Source: Candidatus Polarisedimenticola svalbardensis
GTDB lineage: Bacteria; Acidobacteriota; Polarisedimenticolia; Polarisedimenticolales; Polarisedimenticolaceae
Assembly: GCA_014764515.1 (NCBI GenBank)
Contig: JACXWD010000006.1
Location: 1-62,324, forward strand
Direction of reading: 5' to 3'
Length of the DNA: 62,324 nucleotides
Part shown: positions 29,700 through 36,470 of the stretch, piece after piece
Numbering within the stretch: position 1 is the stretch's first letter
Layout: each line of letters opens with the position of its first letter
Translations under genes and position numbers: made by a program
The notes under the pieces: model-generated
What the model was told of the DNA's origin: nothing
The model's input: only the letters and a program-made list of their open reading frames with translations
Database searches by the model: none

Positions 29700-30704
29700 T
29701 CAGAGTACCCCGAGTTGCCGGGCCAGGCGGATCGCCTGCACCGCCGAGCCGGCTTCGGCCTCGTCCGCTGCTGCCCAGAGCCGGAACCGGTCGTTTCCGC
29801 CTGCCTCGGCCCGGATCGCCGTGATGCTGATCCCGCCGCGCCCGCTGACCTCCACCGGCGTGCATTCGCTGTCGGCGGCGTCGGCCTTCAGTCCCTCCAC
29901 GGCGTCCAGCAGTCCGTACAGGGCCTCCGGTGTCACCGGCTCACGGGTAGTGACTTGCAGGTTGACGCCATGGCCGTAAAACATCGGCACAGCCACCATG
30001 TCCACCGACACGATCACCGGCGGTGATCCAACGAGCCGGGCCGACTCCGAAGCGACCCGCTCCGATGCCACTGCACTGCCGCCTGTAATGTACTCGGAAG
30101 GAACGACGTTGAACGCCAGTTGCCGGCCGAGGTGCCCAACCGGCGGCGATCCGAAGTTGAGCAGATTGACGGTCTGTTGCCTCAGCTCGTCGACGGCGCC
30201 GTCGCCGAAGTCGGCAGCCGGCCTCAAGATGACGGCGGAGGCGGATTCGATTCCCGGTCCCCGGTGGATCGGCGCCAGGATGTCGGCCAGCAACAGGGAC
30301 AGGCTATGGGCTACAACCAGCGCCGAACCAGGTCCGTGATCCCCAGGGGGAAGCAGCCGGTCATGAATCAGAGGCAGGCCCAGACCCATGCCGGCTCCGG
30401 TCAGGTCGATGGTGATGGCACGGGGAGCGGGATCGGTCAGGAATCTGCCGGCATCGGCGGCAGTGTCGCAGATAAAGATGAGGCGGTGCTCTTCAAGGGC
30501 GGCCCGGTCCGCTTCCTGGATCATCCTTGCCTCACCGTCATATTCACTCAGGACCGTTTCACCGGCTCCGAACAGGTCTATACGGCTGCCCGGAACCTGC
30601 ATCGTCTCCAGAACCTTCCGTAGACGGTGCCCCTCGGGGCTGCCGGCGCCGACCAGGGCGATCCGACCGGTGGCCTCTGCCGGGTCAACGCGGGACGGGG
30701 TCAT
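29700..30704 (-). CDS. Aspartate-semialdehyde dehydrogenase-like protein (USG-1-like), Cys lost
   Basis: The 334-residue protein has the Asd fold: N-terminal nucleotide-binding stretch (IALVGAGSPEGHRLRKVLE) and a C-terminal dimer domain with GRQLAFNVVPSE and VAVPMFYGHGVNLQV. In true Asd the nucleophile lies in PNCST; here the region at about 130-136 reads VVAHSLS, with no Cys. It therefore cannot do the Asd reaction by the known mechanism and resembles the uncharacterised E. coli USG-1 type. It overlaps pssA by 20 bases. Confidence 0.78.
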   Translation of the reverse strand: MTPSRVDPAEATGRIALVGAGSPEGHRLRKVLETMQVPGSRIDLFGAGETVLSEYDGEARMIQEADRAALEEHRLIFICDTAADAGRFLTDPAPRAITIDLTGAGMGLGLPLIHDRLLPPGDHGPGSALVVAHSLSLLLADILAPIHRGPGIESASAVILRPAADFGDGAVDELRQQTVNLLNFGSPPVGHLGRQLAFNVVPSEYITGGSAVASERVASESARLVGSPPVIVSVDMVAVPMFYGHGVNLQVTTREPVTPEALYGLLDAVEGLKADAADSECTPVEVSGRGGISITAIRAEAGGNDRFRLWAAADEAEAGSAVQAIRLARQLGVL

Positions 30705-31545: not shown

Positions 31546-31761
31546 TCAGTGCTCCTCCGACCCCCGGGACAGCTTTTCGATCTCGTCCTTGAGAGCCAGC
31601 TTCAGCTTCTTGAGCCTGGCCTCCTCGTACTCCTCGTCGGGGCTCAGATGCACACGGCCCTGCAGGACTTCCAGCCGGGATTCGTATTCCTGATGCTTTT
31701 CGGCGAGACTTGCGAGGCGGGCGTTGACGGAAGGGCTTTTCACGTTCACAGATTCATTCAC
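31546..31761 (-). CDS. Small DUF465 (YdcH-like) protein
   Basis: A 71-residue charged helical protein ending [20 protein letters not shown], the hallmark of DUF465 (LKxxRLxLKDEI). Start is taken at GTG 31761 because AGGAG at 31769-31773 sits 7 bases upstream. Family function is unknown; likely a coiled-coil cytoplasmic protein. It lies just downstream of a strong promoter and may lead the transcript into pssA, 84 bases on. Confidence 0.75.
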
Positions 31762-31800
31762 GTACACTCTCCTGAACAGGATGTGAGAATGGATAGATAG

Positions 31801-31829
31801 ATTATATGTCCCTGAACGGCCCGGATCAA
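31801..31829 (-). promoter_or_regulatory. Strong sigma-70 type promoter
   Basis: On the minus strand TTGATC (31824-31829) and a perfect TATAAT (31801-31806) are separated by exactly 17 bases. Transcription would begin near 31794 and read DUF465, pssA and the following envelope genes. It is the best-looking housekeeping promoter in the window. Confidence 0.7.
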
Positions 31830-31838
31830 AACACAATC

Positions 31839-31851
31839 CCCGTGAAACGGG
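31839..31851 (-). terminator. Weak terminator-like hairpin after tsaB
   Basis: CCCGT and ACGGG pair around a 3-base loop, followed on the minus strand by GATTGTGTTTTG. The short stem and interrupted T-run make it a weak candidate for ending the GGDEF-tsaB transcript. Confidence 0.35.
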
Positions 31852-31896: not shown

Positions 31897-32580
31897 TCAT
31901 CGAGCCTTGAGCACGGCATCCGGCGTACGAAGATACAGCGGGGACATGCCGCTCCCGGAAGGCAGACCGTCATGGTGGCGCCTCACCGCCAGAAGACCTG
32001 CTCCTCCCGCCACCCCGTGTCGAACGGTCCGGACCAGTGAGCCGGGGCAACCGGCCAGAAGGGCATCGCGATGCATGGCGGCGCCGGGCCCGATCCATAC
32101 CACAGGGTCGGACTCTGCGGCCGCCACCGAGTCCGGCTTCCCGAGGCACGGATCAATCACCGCGTCTGGAGGGAACGAACCGGACGTGAAACGGGCGACG
32201 TAGATCTCCGAGCGGCCGGCATCCATCACAGCCACACGGTCCCGGTCTTCCCGGCCGTTGGCTACGGCGATCGACTCCAGGCTGCCGACGCCGAAGCAGG
32301 GTTTGTCCGCCGCCAGGGCCAGGCCCTTCAGCGTGCCGAGTCCGACCCGCAGTCCGGTGAACGAGCCCGGCCCACGGGTGGAGGCGTACAGGTCCACATC
32401 GGAGCGTCCCCAGCCGGCCTCGGCCAGAAGGTGTTCCAGCATCGGCAGAAGATGGCGGGAGTGGGAATCACGGACCAGTAGAGCCGACTCGGCCACTACC
32501 TCCCCGGCGCCCCCTTCCCCCTCCACCAGGGCGACTCCGCCCCACCAGGTGGAGGTGTCGATGGCCACGGCCCGAATCAT
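31897..32580 (-). CDS. tsaB: tRNA t6A biosynthesis protein TsaB
   Basis: TsaB works with TsaD and TsaE to make N6-threonylcarbamoyl-adenosine at tRNA position 37. The ASKHA-fold start (AVAIDTSTWWGGVALV), HSRHLLPMLEHLL and GPGSFTGLRVGLGTLKGLAL are diagnostic. The 227-residue length is typical. Its ATG overlaps the stop of the GGDEF-PilZ gene by 4 bases, so t6A synthesis is translationally linked to c-di-GMP genes. Confidence 0.93.
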   Translation of the reverse strand: MIRAVAIDTSTWWGGVALVEGEGGAGEVVAESALLVRDSHSRHLLPMLEHLLAEAGWGRSDVDLYASTRGPGSFTGLRVGLGTLKGLALAADKPCFGVGSLESIAVANGREDRDRVAVMDAGRSEIYVARFTSGSFPPDAVIDPCLGKPDSVAAAESDPVVWIGPGAAMHRDALLAGCPGSLVRTVRHGVAGGAGLLAVRRHHDGLPSGSGMSPLYLRTPDAVLKAR

Positions 32581-33806
32581 GAAGGTCCCGGTTCCGAACC
32601 GATACGGGACCGTTCAAGAAAGTCCAGAAGATCGTCGCCGGCGGCAAGGGAGTCGGCATCGAAAGCGACGCCTATCTCGTAGAGGTCCGCCCCCGGCTTC
32701 GTCCCCTCTTCTTCGGGCAGCTCTTCCAGCCGCACTACCCTGCCGCGGACCCGCAGCGGTTTCGGTCCTCCGTCCGGCGTCTGATCCTGAAGACGGATCT
32801 CGATCTCTTCCCCGACGTGCAGCGTCTCGGGGCTGGTAAAGACGATTCCGTTGCGGCTCAGGTTGCGGGCCTCCCCCACACGGACGTCCTGGGGTCCCAA
32901 AACCTCCACTTCAAACCTGCCGGGCTCAAGGTCGAACCGCAGGAACCGTCGCCGCTCAGGGTTATAGACCAGGATGATGTTCTTCCCCGAGGCCTTGGCG
33001 CGGTAGAGCGCCTGCGCCGCCCGCTCCAGGAGCTCCTCGGGCGAGTTGGCGTCCCCCGGATAGGTGGCAACCCCTCCCGAGACGGTCAAACCGACCGGGG
33101 CGCCGTCGGCCTCCCGGCGTCCGAAGAAACGCTCCACCTCAAGCCGGAACCGTTCCGCCACCAGTAGCGCCCCGTTGCGATCGGTCTGGGGCAGCACCAG
33201 GGCAACCTCGTCCTCTCCAGGGCGGGCGGCGACATCGATATCCCGGATCTTGTTGTTCAGCAGAATCGCCATTTCCTTCAATACACGGTCGCCGACAAAT
33301 CGACCGAGACGGTCGTTCATCGGGCCGAAATCGTCCAGATCGAATACCGCCACCGAAACCGTTTGCCCATACCGCCTGGCCCGGCGCAACTCATGCTGTA
33401 CGGCTACCCGGAACATCCGGTCCGTGGCAAGACCGGTCAACGGCTCCCGGGTTGAGGAACCGTCCCCGACTTCAAACATCTCGAGATCGATCAGGGTCGG
33501 GCGGATCAGATGCCGGTTGACGTTCACGAAGTAATCCAGAAGCGCCACCCGCACTCCCACATCACGTCCCAGGGCCCGGCTCAGCTCGGCGCGATGGGTG
33601 ACGATGCCGGTCCAGTGCTCCCGGGCTTCGTCGTCGTCGAACTGCAGGTGGGTCAGGATCAGGATCAGAGCGGCATGGGCTCCAACGCCGGATTCACTGG
33701 TTACGGCATCCAGCCTGCTCAACAACCTCTGAACGTTGAGGGCGTCCTCTTCCAGCATTTCCAGGAGTTCCACCCGGATTCGGCCGGCGTCTTCCTGATT
33801 GATCAA
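32577..33806 (-). CDS. Degenerate GGDEF domain protein with PilZ domain
   Basis: 409 residues: a helical N-terminal domain (1-115), a GGDEF-family domain (about 118-290) and a PilZ domain (about 300-400). The active-site signature reads GEDEV (197-201) in place of GGDEF, so cyclase activity is doubtful. The inhibitory I-site RxxD is kept (RDID, 188-191, five residues upstream), as are the PilZ motifs RRRFLRFDL and NLSRNG. It is therefore likely a c-di-GMP receptor. It starts with TTG (GGAGG 9 bases upstream) in a 4-base overlap with the upstream paralogue. Confidence 0.85.
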   Translation of the reverse strand: MINQEDAGRIRVELLEMLEEDALNVQRLLSRLDAVTSESGVGAHAALILILTHLQFDDDEAREHWTGIVTHRAELSRALGRDVGVRVALLDYFVNVNRHLIRPTLIDLEMFEVGDGSSTREPLTGLATDRMFRVAVQHELRRARRYGQTVSVAVFDLDDFGPMNDRLGRFVGDRVLKEMAILLNNKIRDIDVAARPGEDEVALVLPQTDRNGALLVAERFRLEVERFFGRREADGAPVGLTVSGGVATYPGDANSPEELLERAAQALYRAKASGKNIILVYNPERRRFLRFDLEPGRFEVEVLGPQDVRVGEARNLSRNGIVFTSPETLHVGEEIEIRLQDQTPDGGPKPLRVRGRVVRLEELPEEEGTKPGADLYEIGVAFDADSLAAGDDLLDFLERSRIGSEPGPS

Positions 33807-35014
33807 AGGTAGGAGCCTCCCCCGCTCTCACCAGCCGCAGGGCGACCGCCGAGGATGTAATCGGTCAGGCAGGTGTCGGGTATCGGCTGTTCCAGCGCGA
33901 CACCCAGCCTTCGAGTCAGAGCGGTAGGCTCTTCGATTCTCACAACCTTCCCCTGCAGCTCCCAGGGATCCGCCACCGGATCCGAACTTTTGGCGAGCCG
34001 GAATCTGACAACGGTGTCCCGGTCTACCTGCTGGCCTGTTTCGACCAGCATCCCGCCGTAGCTGATATCCACGCCCCGGACCAGGGTCCAGGCCCCGGAA
34101 GGATCGTGATGCATCCGGATGTCACCACGGCCGTTCAACGGGTAGCGAATATGGGTTCTGCGCTCCTTGTGGAACAAGGTGATACGGTCGCGCCCGGCTC
34201 TTTTGGCTTCATACAGCCCTTCGTCGGCCCGTTCCATCAGGATCGGCAGTTCCCGGCCGTCCTGCGGGAAAACCGCAATCCCGCCGGATGCGGTCAGGTT
34301 CAGCTGGGAATCGCCAGTCGGCTTCCCTTGAAATTCTTCCCGGATCCGGATCCGCAACCGGTCCGCCACGACGTAGGCGCCCAACCGCTCGGTCTCGGGA
34401 AGCAGCAACACGAATTCTTCCCCGCCATAGCGACAGGCGACATCAACATCCCGGATCGTCTTCCTCATGCAGTCGGCCGCCTTCCGCAGCGCCAGGTCCC
34501 CTACCCGGTGGCCGAACTGGTCGTTCACCCTTTTGAACCGGTCGAGGTCGATGAGAACGATGGCGAACTGCAGGCGGTGCCGGCGGCACCGGGCGATCTC
34601 CCTCTCCCCGATCCGTGTGAGGTGTCTCCGGTTGAACAGGCCGGTCAGGGGGTCTGTGGTGGCGGACTGCATGGTCTTTTCGAACTGCGCCAGCTCAACC
34701 ACTTTCGGGTTGCGCAGCAATGCTTCCACATTGGAAAGGAAGTCGACGGTGGCGACCTGCAGTCCAGGATCCCGGGCCAGGGCCGTCGCCAACTCCAGAC
34801 GATGGTCCAGAATGCGGATCAGGAGCGCCTCGGCTTCCTCTTCTCCACGGACAAGGTTCGCCAGAAGGCGCACCACGTTGGCGCAGGACGGGAACCCTTC
34901 CGCCTTGCCGATCCGCACCAATCTCCCGATCCACTCACCGGGATCAGGATCGACTTCGGCGATCATTTCAAGGAGAAGTTCACGCTGTTGCCGAGGGAGC
35001 CCAGAAGCTTCCAC
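33803..35014 (-). CDS. Diguanylate cyclase (GGEEF) with PilZ domain
   Basis: About 403 residues from GTG 35014 (GGGGG upstream), though the frame extends further. It shares the order helical domain, GGDEF, PilZ with its downstream neighbour. The active site is intact: DPLTGLFNRRHL, LIDLDRFKRVNDQFGH and RYGGEEF (GGEEF at 197-201), with an I-site RDVD five residues before. The PilZ part has RRTHIRYPL and DISYGG. It should make c-di-GMP and sense it itself. Divergent from the ECF sigma gene. Confidence 0.87.
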   Translation of the reverse strand: MEASGLPRQQRELLLEMIAEVDPDPGEWIGRLVRIGKAEGFPSCANVVRLLANLVRGEEEAEALLIRILDHRLELATALARDPGLQVATVDFLSNVEALLRNPKVVELAQFEKTMQSATTDPLTGLFNRRHLTRIGEREIARCRRHRLQFAIVLIDLDRFKRVNDQFGHRVGDLALRKAADCMRKTIRDVDVACRYGGEEFVLLLPETERLGAYVVADRLRIRIREEFQGKPTGDSQLNLTASGGIAVFPQDGRELPILMERADEGLYEAKRAGRDRITLFHKERRTHIRYPLNGRGDIRMHHDPSGAWTLVRGVDISYGGMLVETGQQVDRDTVVRFRLAKSSDPVADPWELQGKVVRIEEPTALTRRLGVALEQPIPDTCLTDYILGGRPAAGESGGGSYL

Positions 35015-35139
35015 ACTACCCCCTTCGGTCGAACTCCGGGCCGCCTTCAGCCCATCAGAATTCCACCCGGCGCGCCTATCGCCGGTACGAGCCAATGCTA
35101 GCACGGTCAACCACTTGCATGTCAATCGGCCATGATCAT

Positions 35140-35193: not shown

Positions 35194-35841
35194 ATGCAGG
35201 GACCGGGAACAACCACGGGAAAGGCAGGCCTGGGGCGGACCGCCGGCGAACGGCAGGCGACGGACGAGACCCTGGTTCACAGGTGCCTGAACGGTAACCG
35301 CTCTGCATTCGAGAAGCTGGTTCGCAGGCACCAGAAGGGATTGGTGAACCACCTCTACCGTTTGACCGGCCAACCGGATACCGCCAGGGACCTGGCTCAG
35401 GAAGTTTTCATCAAGGTCTACACTTCCCTTGGAACGTTCGATCCCAGGTACCGCTTCACAACCTGGATGTACCGCATCGCCTCCAACTGCGCCATCGACC
35501 ACCTGCGCAAACGGCGGCCCCAGACATGCTCCCTGACCGTACAGGCCGCCGAGTCCGACGACAGGAGCCAGTCGGACAGAGAGTTCGCCGGCACCGAACC
35601 GACACCGCACCAGATGCTGCGATGCCGCGAGATCCAGGAGCGCCTGGAGGCATCGGTTGAGGCCTTGCCGTCGTCCTACCGCCAGCTGATCCTCCTGCGG
35701 CACCAGAAGCACTGCCGCTACGATGAGATCGCCAGAATCACCGGGCTGCCGATCGGAACGGTGAAGAACAGGATTTTCAGGGCCAGGGAGATACTGCGCA
35801 GCCAGCTGTCGGACATCCTCGAGGCGGAGGATTTGCGGTGA
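35194..35841 (+). CDS. ECF (RpoE-like) RNA polymerase sigma factor
   Basis: A 215-residue sigma-70 family protein with region 2 (FEKLVRRHQKGLVNHLYRLT, ARDLAQEVFIKVYTSL, FTTWMYRIASNCAIDHLRKR) and region 4 (LPSSYRQLILLRHQKHCRYD, ITGLPIGTVKNRIFRAREIL). Regions 1.1 and 3 are absent, as in ECF factors. GGAGGG lies 5 bases before ATG 35194. It overlaps its anti-sigma gene by 4 bases (GTGA). The Lys/Arg-rich linker between regions is longer than usual. Confidence 0.93.
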   Translation: MQGPGTTTGKAGLGRTAGERQATDETLVHRCLNGNRSAFEKLVRRHQKGLVNHLYRLTGQPDTARDLAQEVFIKVYTSLGTFDPRYRFTTWMYRIASNCAIDHLRKRRPQTCSLTVQAAESDDRSQSDREFAGTEPTPHQMLRCREIQERLEASVEALPSSYRQLILLRHQKHCRYDEIARITGLPIGTVKNRIFRAREILRSQLSDILEAEDLR

Positions 35842-36470
35842 GTGACTGTACCCATATGAGACCGCTGATCGACCGGATCTCCGAGGGCGAAGCGACGCCG
35901 GAAGAGGCGCTGGCCCTGGGCCGCCATCTTCCGGCCTGCACGGTCTGTCGCATTCTTCTGGCCAAGGCCCACCGCCTGAACGAGATGGTGGACGGGATCG
36001 GGGATCCGCTGGAAGTGGAGGAATCCTTCCTCCAGGGAGTCATGGACTCTCTCCCCGACGGCCCTCCGCAGGGCGAGGACAAGGTCGGGGGACGGCGCAC
36101 GCGCAGGCACCTTCGGATCGTCAAACTGCTGGTAACCATGAGCCCCCTGGGCCTCCTGGGGGCCGGCCGCTCCATGGTCATGAGCTATCCGGGACAGTTC
36201 AGCCGGATCGTGGACAGCGGCACTTTCCTGCCTGTTGAAGGCGGGCCGGGGATCGCCTCCTCCTTGCGGGAGATCCTGGGAATCGTCATGGCGGTAGCCG
36301 GCAAGCTCGGCATCTCAAGCGGCGACCTGACATCGGTTCGGCCGGTGCTTGCCCTGGGGAACTTCATGTCGGTCGTATGGCCGCTGACACTCGCCCTTAT
36401 AATTACCGGTGTCCTGGCCCTGGCTCTGTACAAGCCGTTACGGAAGTTTTTCAGCCGACCCGATCCTTGA
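35838..36470 (+). CDS. Membrane anti-sigma factor with zinc-finger (ZAS) motif
   Basis: The N-terminal anti-sigma zinc-binding motif H-x3-C-x2-C is present (H30, C34, C37 in RHLPACTVC). A long middle region follows, and the protein has membrane-like stretches near 105-120 (LVTMSPLGLLGA) and at the C-terminus (VVWPLTLALIITGVLALALY). The start is GTG in a 4-base overlap with the sigma gene. It should hold the ECF factor until an envelope signal arrives. Its 3' end overlaps the opposing regulator gene by 20 bases. Confidence 0.87.
   Translation: MSDCTHMRPLIDRISEGEATPEEALALGRHLPACTVCRILLAKAHRLNEMVDGIGDPLEVEESFLQGVMDSLPDGPPQGEDKVGGRRTRRHLRIVKLLVTMSPLGLLGAGRSMVMSYPGQFSRIVDSGTFLPVEGGPGIASSLREILGIVMAVAGKLGISSGDLTSVRPVLALGNFMSVVWPLTLALIITGVLALALYKPLRKFFSRPDP

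Follow-up and report, generated by a model that had tools for sequence, protein, structure and literature searches.

A duplicated GGDEF-PilZ locus in Polarisedimenticolia encoding a probable diguanylate cyclase and a paralogue with a degenerate active site and a retained I-site

Two overlapping genes of Candidatus Polarisedimenticola svalbardensis (Acidobacteriota) encode paralogous GGDEF-PilZ proteins, of which the upstream one (P0002) carries a complete set of catalytic residues and the downstream one (P0001) has lost part of its active site (A-site) and kept the motifs of two c-di-GMP-binding sites. The genes lie in the first 62,324 nucleotides of contig JACXWD010000006.1 (assembly GCA_014764515.1), the stretch analysed here and hereafter called the window. 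In the reading that we consider probable, P0002 is an active cyclase and P0001 a catalytically dead pseudo-cyclase, retained as a c-di-GMP-binding protein and produced together with its neighbour. P0002 would make c-di-GMP; P0001, presumably devoid of cyclase activity, would bind it through the I-site of its GGDEF domain and through its PilZ domain, and would be synthesised in step with P0002 by means of overlapping reading frames; the two proteins would work together.

Degenerate GGDEF domains are common, representing about a quarter of all GGDEF domains (PMC3974145), and whether a given one is a receptor, a regulator or a relic is usually debated protein by protein. The locus described here was duplicated once, lost its active site in opposite twins depending on the family and preserved the I-site each time, and can be regarded as a natural replicated experiment. 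With it, selection for binding can be told apart from selection for catalysis, and matched protein pairs become available for direct tests of receptor, GTP-sensor and heterodimer models. Signalling by c-di-GMP need not be confined to the pair, since the genome (3.69 Mb, 180 contigs) contains 10 GGDEF, 2 EAL and 4 HD-GYP domains as well as at least 7 other PilZ domains. An additional GGDEF-PilZ gene is found elsewhere in the same genome (G000:C36:6139-6900).

Gene order and neighbourhood

On the minus strand, which carries all the features of the pair listed below, P0002 (33803-35014; 403 amino acids, GTG start) is followed by P0001 (32577-33806; 409 amino acids, TTG start) and by a tsaB-like gene of the PF00814 family (31897-32580), the third member of the coupled set, which adjoins the pair in those relatives of the class whose contig extends far enough. 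Both proteins combine an N-terminal helical domain with a GGDEF domain (GGEEF in P0002, degenerate GEDEV in P0001) and a PilZ domain. A preliminary description based on the letters of the DNA had viewed them as neighbouring paralogues with this layout, and both open reading frames, the Pfam matches and an identity of 33% over 372 amino acids (E 2e-55) bear this out. The GTG start of P0002 is consistent with the alignment of orthologues; with the ATG at 35308 as start, the open reading frame would lengthen to 501 amino acids.

The TTG start of P0001 overlaps the TGA stop of P0002 by 4 nt (TTGA, 33803-33806), the stop of P0001 overlaps the start of tsaB by another 4 nt (ATGA, 32577-32580), and a 4-nt overlap at the P0002/P0001 junction is also present in most relatives. 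The operon with tsaB proposed earlier is therefore well supported as translational coupling, and the conserved overlap of the pair points to coordinated synthesis of both proteins; the linkage to tsaB is probably just co-transcription. Searches covering 60 relatives, the class and the phylum retrieved 49 loci. The neighbourhood is conserved across the class and comprises the two GGDEF-PilZ genes, tsaB, pssA and asd, in many cases preceded by a divergently oriented ECF sigma gene; within the order of the window, it also takes in ntrY-ntrX, ahead of the sigma gene.

Inspection by eye suggested a tentative sigma-70-type promoter of the pair, TTGACA-19 nt-TAGCAT (35095-35125), and TTGAC occurs at a comparable distance upstream of the pair in about 10 of 16 loci, also by eye; a consensus scan with a spacer of 16-18 nt found nothing and did not recover this element. 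The divergent ECF-type sigma gene, accompanied by a probable anti-sigma gene (window 35194-36470), is syntenic in many relatives, and TGAAAC/TGAACC-like elements are found upstream of it in several loci. As a regulator of the pair, this sigma factor is only a lead, and the pair seems to own a TTGAC-type promoter. Further along, a small DUF465 (YdcH-like) protein, kept in some relatives, is encoded between tsaB and pssA (window 31546-31851), and the aspartate-semialdehyde-dehydrogenase-like protein at 29700-30704 is matched by Pfam in its C-terminal dimerisation domain only.

Active-site and binding-site residues

Pfam searches returned only GGDEF and PilZ domains for each protein, all above cut-off (152–154 and about 31 bits for P0002, 116–119 and 37 bits for P0001). 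In P0002, the GGDEF domain (34184-34663; PF00990, 154 bits) contains the GGEEF motif at residues 197-201 (34412-34426) and an I-site, RDVD, at residues 188-191 (34442-34453), and is followed by the PilZ domain (33875-34165; PF07238, 31.4 bits) with RxxxR and DISYGG. An active diguanylate cyclase was defined by [GAS]G[DE]E[FY] in combination with D327, K332, N335, D344 and K442 (PleD numbering); P0002 has them all, as seen in GGEEF, DLDRFKRVND...VGD and AK..GR, and is probably an active enzyme.

In P0001, the degenerate GGDEF domain (32979-33443; PF00990, 119 bits; GGDEF fold by Foldseek, E 6e-17) carries GEDEV at residues 197-201 (33204-33218), that is at the same residue numbers as GGEEF in P0002, as had been described. 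The I-site RDID occupies residues 188-191 (33234-33245). Alignment to PleD numbering equates R188 and D191 with R359 and D362, and R219 (33150-33152), the third I-site residue, with R390. In the PilZ domain (32613-32957; PF07238, 37 bits), RxxxR is formed by R286-R290 (32937-32951) and NxSxxG by NLSRNG at residues 315-320 (32847-32864). PilZ domains were accepted with a PF07238 score above the 22.5-bit cut-off in conjunction with RxxxR and [DN]xSxxG, and both proteins possess this combination, so the reported retention of I-site and PilZ motifs holds for each of them.

The same alignment details what P0001 has lost: Gly161 stands in place of K332, Glu198 in place of the second motif Gly, Val201 in place of the motif Phe and a Lys in place of R446. 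The equivalents of D327, N335, D344, E370 (as Asp), E371 and K442 are retained, along with the full R359/D362/R390 triad. What each of these PleD residues does is general knowledge of the GGDEF family. The earlier statement that the catalytic motif is lost is thus accurate for positions 2 (G to E) and 5 (F to V) and for the K332-equivalent lysine at 161; it does not extend to D199, the metal-ligand acid, or to E200, the catalytic-base Glu, which are both kept. Judged by its residues, the active site of P0001 is a case of selective loss and not of erasure. With GEDEV and a Gly at the K332 position, P0001 departs from the active-cyclase pattern and matches that of a degenerate GGDEF I-site receptor, in which the A-site is lost and R359/D362/R390 are kept, with metal ligands and catalytic Glu still present.

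In the AlphaFold2 model of P0001 each domain is confident (mean pLDDT 89), and the relative placement of the domains is uncertain because pTM is 0.56. Foldseek matched the GGDEF domain of the model to c-di-GMP-bound GGDEF structures. The N-terminal domain (residues 1-105, 33492-33806), common to homologues, is predicted as a confident bundle of five to six helices (pLDDT 90); it has no Pfam match, and a fold search gave no solved relative at E ≤ 0.001. In both proteins (window 33492-33806 and 34691-35014) this domain of about 105 amino acids bears a conserved RDxGxRVAxxDY-like signature shared by homologues in the phylum. Possibly it represents a new domain for sensing or dimerisation.

Conservation, duplication and reversed roles

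Ten genomes of the order were compared. Their downstream copies read GEDEL (three), GEDEV (two), GEDEM, GEDEF, GSDEF, GSDEL and GGDEL (one each); the canonical motif appears in 0/10, and none of the ten has either the active motif or K332. G198 is retained in one and F201 in two, K161 and H169 (after FG) in none, and D264 is gone in all nine sequences that extend that far. D156, D199 and E200 are present in 10/10, K271 is kept and N164/D173 mostly so; R188, D191 and R219 of the I-site are likewise retained in 10/10, and the PilZ motifs nearly always. Upstream copies of the same genomes are canonical in eight cases; G008 has the near-canonical GGEEI and G004 the degenerate GGSRT. In the latter, a single-contig genome (L116:6400-8777), both members of the pair are degenerate, with GGSRT and GEDEL. 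The preliminary description had made its case depend on homologues that keep the binding motifs and lack a normal GGDEF motif: a degenerate A-site with an I-site was found throughout the order, the GEDEV string itself varies, and a normal GGEEF stands at this position outside the order (G013, G024 and G030). A-site loss in the downstream copy is for this reason lineage-specific.

The opposite arrangement is seen in two families, f12, with four genomes, and f8, with six in which both copies can be read. Here the downstream copy carries GGEEF, AGEEF or SGEEF, motifs that would permit activity, although Arg or His stands at the K332 position. It is the upstream copy that is degenerate, with GGAHF, GGGHF, EGGIF, GGTRL, LEDSL, SPDAF, PAGDI, KNGDF, PPHDF or ASAGF. 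Full retention in these upstream copies is limited to 8 of the 37 canonical GGDEF columns, a set that includes all three I-site residues; the hypergeometric chance that three named columns fall within those eight is about 0.007. The equivalents of R188, D191 and R219 are present in 10/10, and none of the A-site columns 156, 161, 164, 197, 198, 200, 201 and 271 (metal, base, phosphate and motif) is fully retained, a pattern that supports selection for binding rather than for catalysis. When three f8 upstream proteins were scanned with PF00990, two had no match at E 0.1 and the third was sub-threshold; I-site receptors may therefore escape annotation, and a c-di-GMP I-site can outlast the recognisability of its GGDEF domain. 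Five f8 upstream copies (L126, L127, L128, L130 and L132) are highly diverged with RDxD still in place, and annotation would show their PilZ domain only.

In a maximum-likelihood tree built from 71 homologues, a starred branch (97/93) sets 21 upstream copies apart from the rest, and the downstream copies make up a single starred clade (99/96 for 25 rows, 98/92 when G013 is included). The upstream copy of G013 falls outside the upstream group, and the exact placement of the f8 upstream copies is less sure because their branches are long. A swap of gene order as the cause of the reversed roles is ruled out, as upstream and downstream copies group separately. On this tree, the simplest account would be one duplication before the radiation of the class, followed by degeneration of opposite copies.

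Selection was compared in one species pair (G000 and G001), for which dS is near 1 and values are approximate: dN/dS is 0.043 for the degenerate and 0.124 for the intact GGDEF domain, and 0.074 and 0.138 for the whole genes of P0001 and P0002. Mean GGDEF-domain identity across the order is 63% for the degenerate copy and 50% for the intact one. Of the two GGDEF domains, the degenerate one thus seems to be under the stronger constraint. The P0001 reading frame is intact in relatives at 53–88% identity, and P0001 is not decaying, given this conserved frame and the purifying selection.

The division into one maker and one reader proposed for this operon is mirrored across the order by A-site loss and retention of the binding motifs. 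It is not obligatory, since G004 has no canonical copy and G013 has two, and f8 and f12 reverse it; G010 combines a canonical upstream copy with SGGEF downstream. A single copy at the tsaB locus, extensively degenerate and lacking both A-site and PilZ motifs, occurs in G017 and G020 (L158, L159).

Alternative readings and comparison with known systems

A precedent for P0001 as a c-di-GMP-binding pseudo-cyclase is CdgI of E. coli, which has a degenerate A-site and an intact I-site and binds c-di-GMP (PMC5635695). The claim of selection for binding, made earlier, agrees with the kept I-site and PilZ motifs and with the dN/dS values, but the retained D199, E200 and K271 leave GTP binding possible. 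P0001 orthologues keep D156, D199, E200 and K271, and mostly N164/D173, which is more than an I-site-only receptor needs. Moreover, every member of the family has this I-site, the canonical ones too, and its retention could therefore reflect product inhibition or dimer architecture instead of a role as receptor.

A realistic possibility, though not the one we expect, is a hetero-oligomer in which the pseudo-cyclase forms a dimer with the active cyclase and either inhibits or stimulates its partner, the mixed complex being locked, as feedback, by c-di-GMP bound at the I-sites; it overlaps with the c-di-GMP-binding reading that we prefer. It would account for degeneration of either member, and agrees with the conserved pairing and overlap of the genes. 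In E. coli, degenerate GGDEF domains have been shown to make heteromeric contacts with canonical ones (PMC5635695), and the catalytic-base Glu, which works across the dimer (PMC8835794), is retained in 10/10 degenerate copies of the order. This Glu is, however, gone from the degenerate copies of f8 and f12, and P0001 and P0002 are only 33% identical. We would offer only as speculation the further idea that the pair is an enzyme/pseudo-enzyme heteromer comparable to kinase and pseudokinase, with a pseudo-twin interchangeable between lineages and c-di-GMP across the I-sites gating the active cyclase.

That P0001 is a GTP sensor, its GEDEx domain binding GTP and metal without cyclising and its occupancy controlling PilZ output or a partner, much as the GEDEF domain of Caulobacter CC3396 controls the EAL domain of that protein, is unlikely but still a live rival, because metal ligands, catalytic Glu and phosphate Lys are kept (D156, D199, E200 and K271, permitting GTP binding) and motif position 2 is E, in 7/10 orthologues of the order, as in CC3396, whose GEDEF domain binds GTP and lacks cyclase activity (PMC4823724). 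Position 2 is nevertheless Ser or Gly in three relatives, the K332-equivalent is gone in all orthologues of the order, and P0001 has no EAL or other enzyme domain to regulate; the f8 and f12 upstream copies, which lost metal and base residues and kept the I-site, would remain unexplained.

It is very improbable that P0001, with its unusual motif, has remained a diguanylate cyclase. Its metal ligands and catalytic Glu are kept, and some cyclases tolerate changes at the first position (VCA0965 AGDEF, ECA3270 SGDEF; PMC3974145), but the active motif is [G/A/S]G[D/E]E[F/Y] and P0001 is altered at position 2, where a Gly-to-Ala mutation abolished activity in a GSU1937-GacA fusion (PMC8835794); the K332-equivalent and His 169 are also gone in 10/10 and D264 in 9/9 readable sequences. 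A functionless decaying duplicate, as the loss of the catalytic motif after duplication and the single copies of G017 and G020 might suggest, is scarcely tenable, this pseudogene reading being largely refuted by an overall dN/dS of 0.07 and an intact frame at 53–88% identity in a protein better conserved than its neighbour.

A literature search under the hyphenated term GGDEF-PilZ found no paper, which does not show that none exists; several characterised systems share parts of the arrangement. Both P0001 and P0002 share RxxxR and [DN]xSxxG with YcgR-type PilZ receptors; unlike YcgR, they have no YcgR-N domain and their PilZ domain is fused to GGDEF. P0002 resembles PleD, its best sequence match in the PDB, as well as WspR and DgcR in having complete catalytic residues and an I-site, and differs from them by its C-terminal PilZ domain and an N-terminal helical domain for which no solved relative was found. 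The best PDB sequence match of P0001 is 6d9m, a T4-lysozyme fusion to a Geobacter GGDEF domain that we take to be a Hypr GGDEF, the group of Geobacter GacA and its relatives. A Hypr (cGAMP synthase) identity is ruled out by the D344 position, which is Asp in both proteins (D173 in P0001) instead of the defining Ser. With the GEDEF-EAL protein CC3396 (PdeA) of Caulobacter, P0001 shares E at motif position 2 followed by D and E, and seven of ten orthologues have GEDE[VLMF]; where CC3396 has an EAL phosphodiesterase domain, P0001 has PilZ and no enzyme domain. Parallels to the predicted receptor are PopA, Bdellovibrio CdgA, SgmT and E. coli CdgI, which like P0001 join a degenerate A-site to RxxD, P0001 having the full R359/D362/R390 triad. 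Unlike these proteins, P0001, whose c-di-GMP binding is predicted from its residues, has a C-terminal PilZ domain, a coupled intact paralogue and conserved metal ligands.
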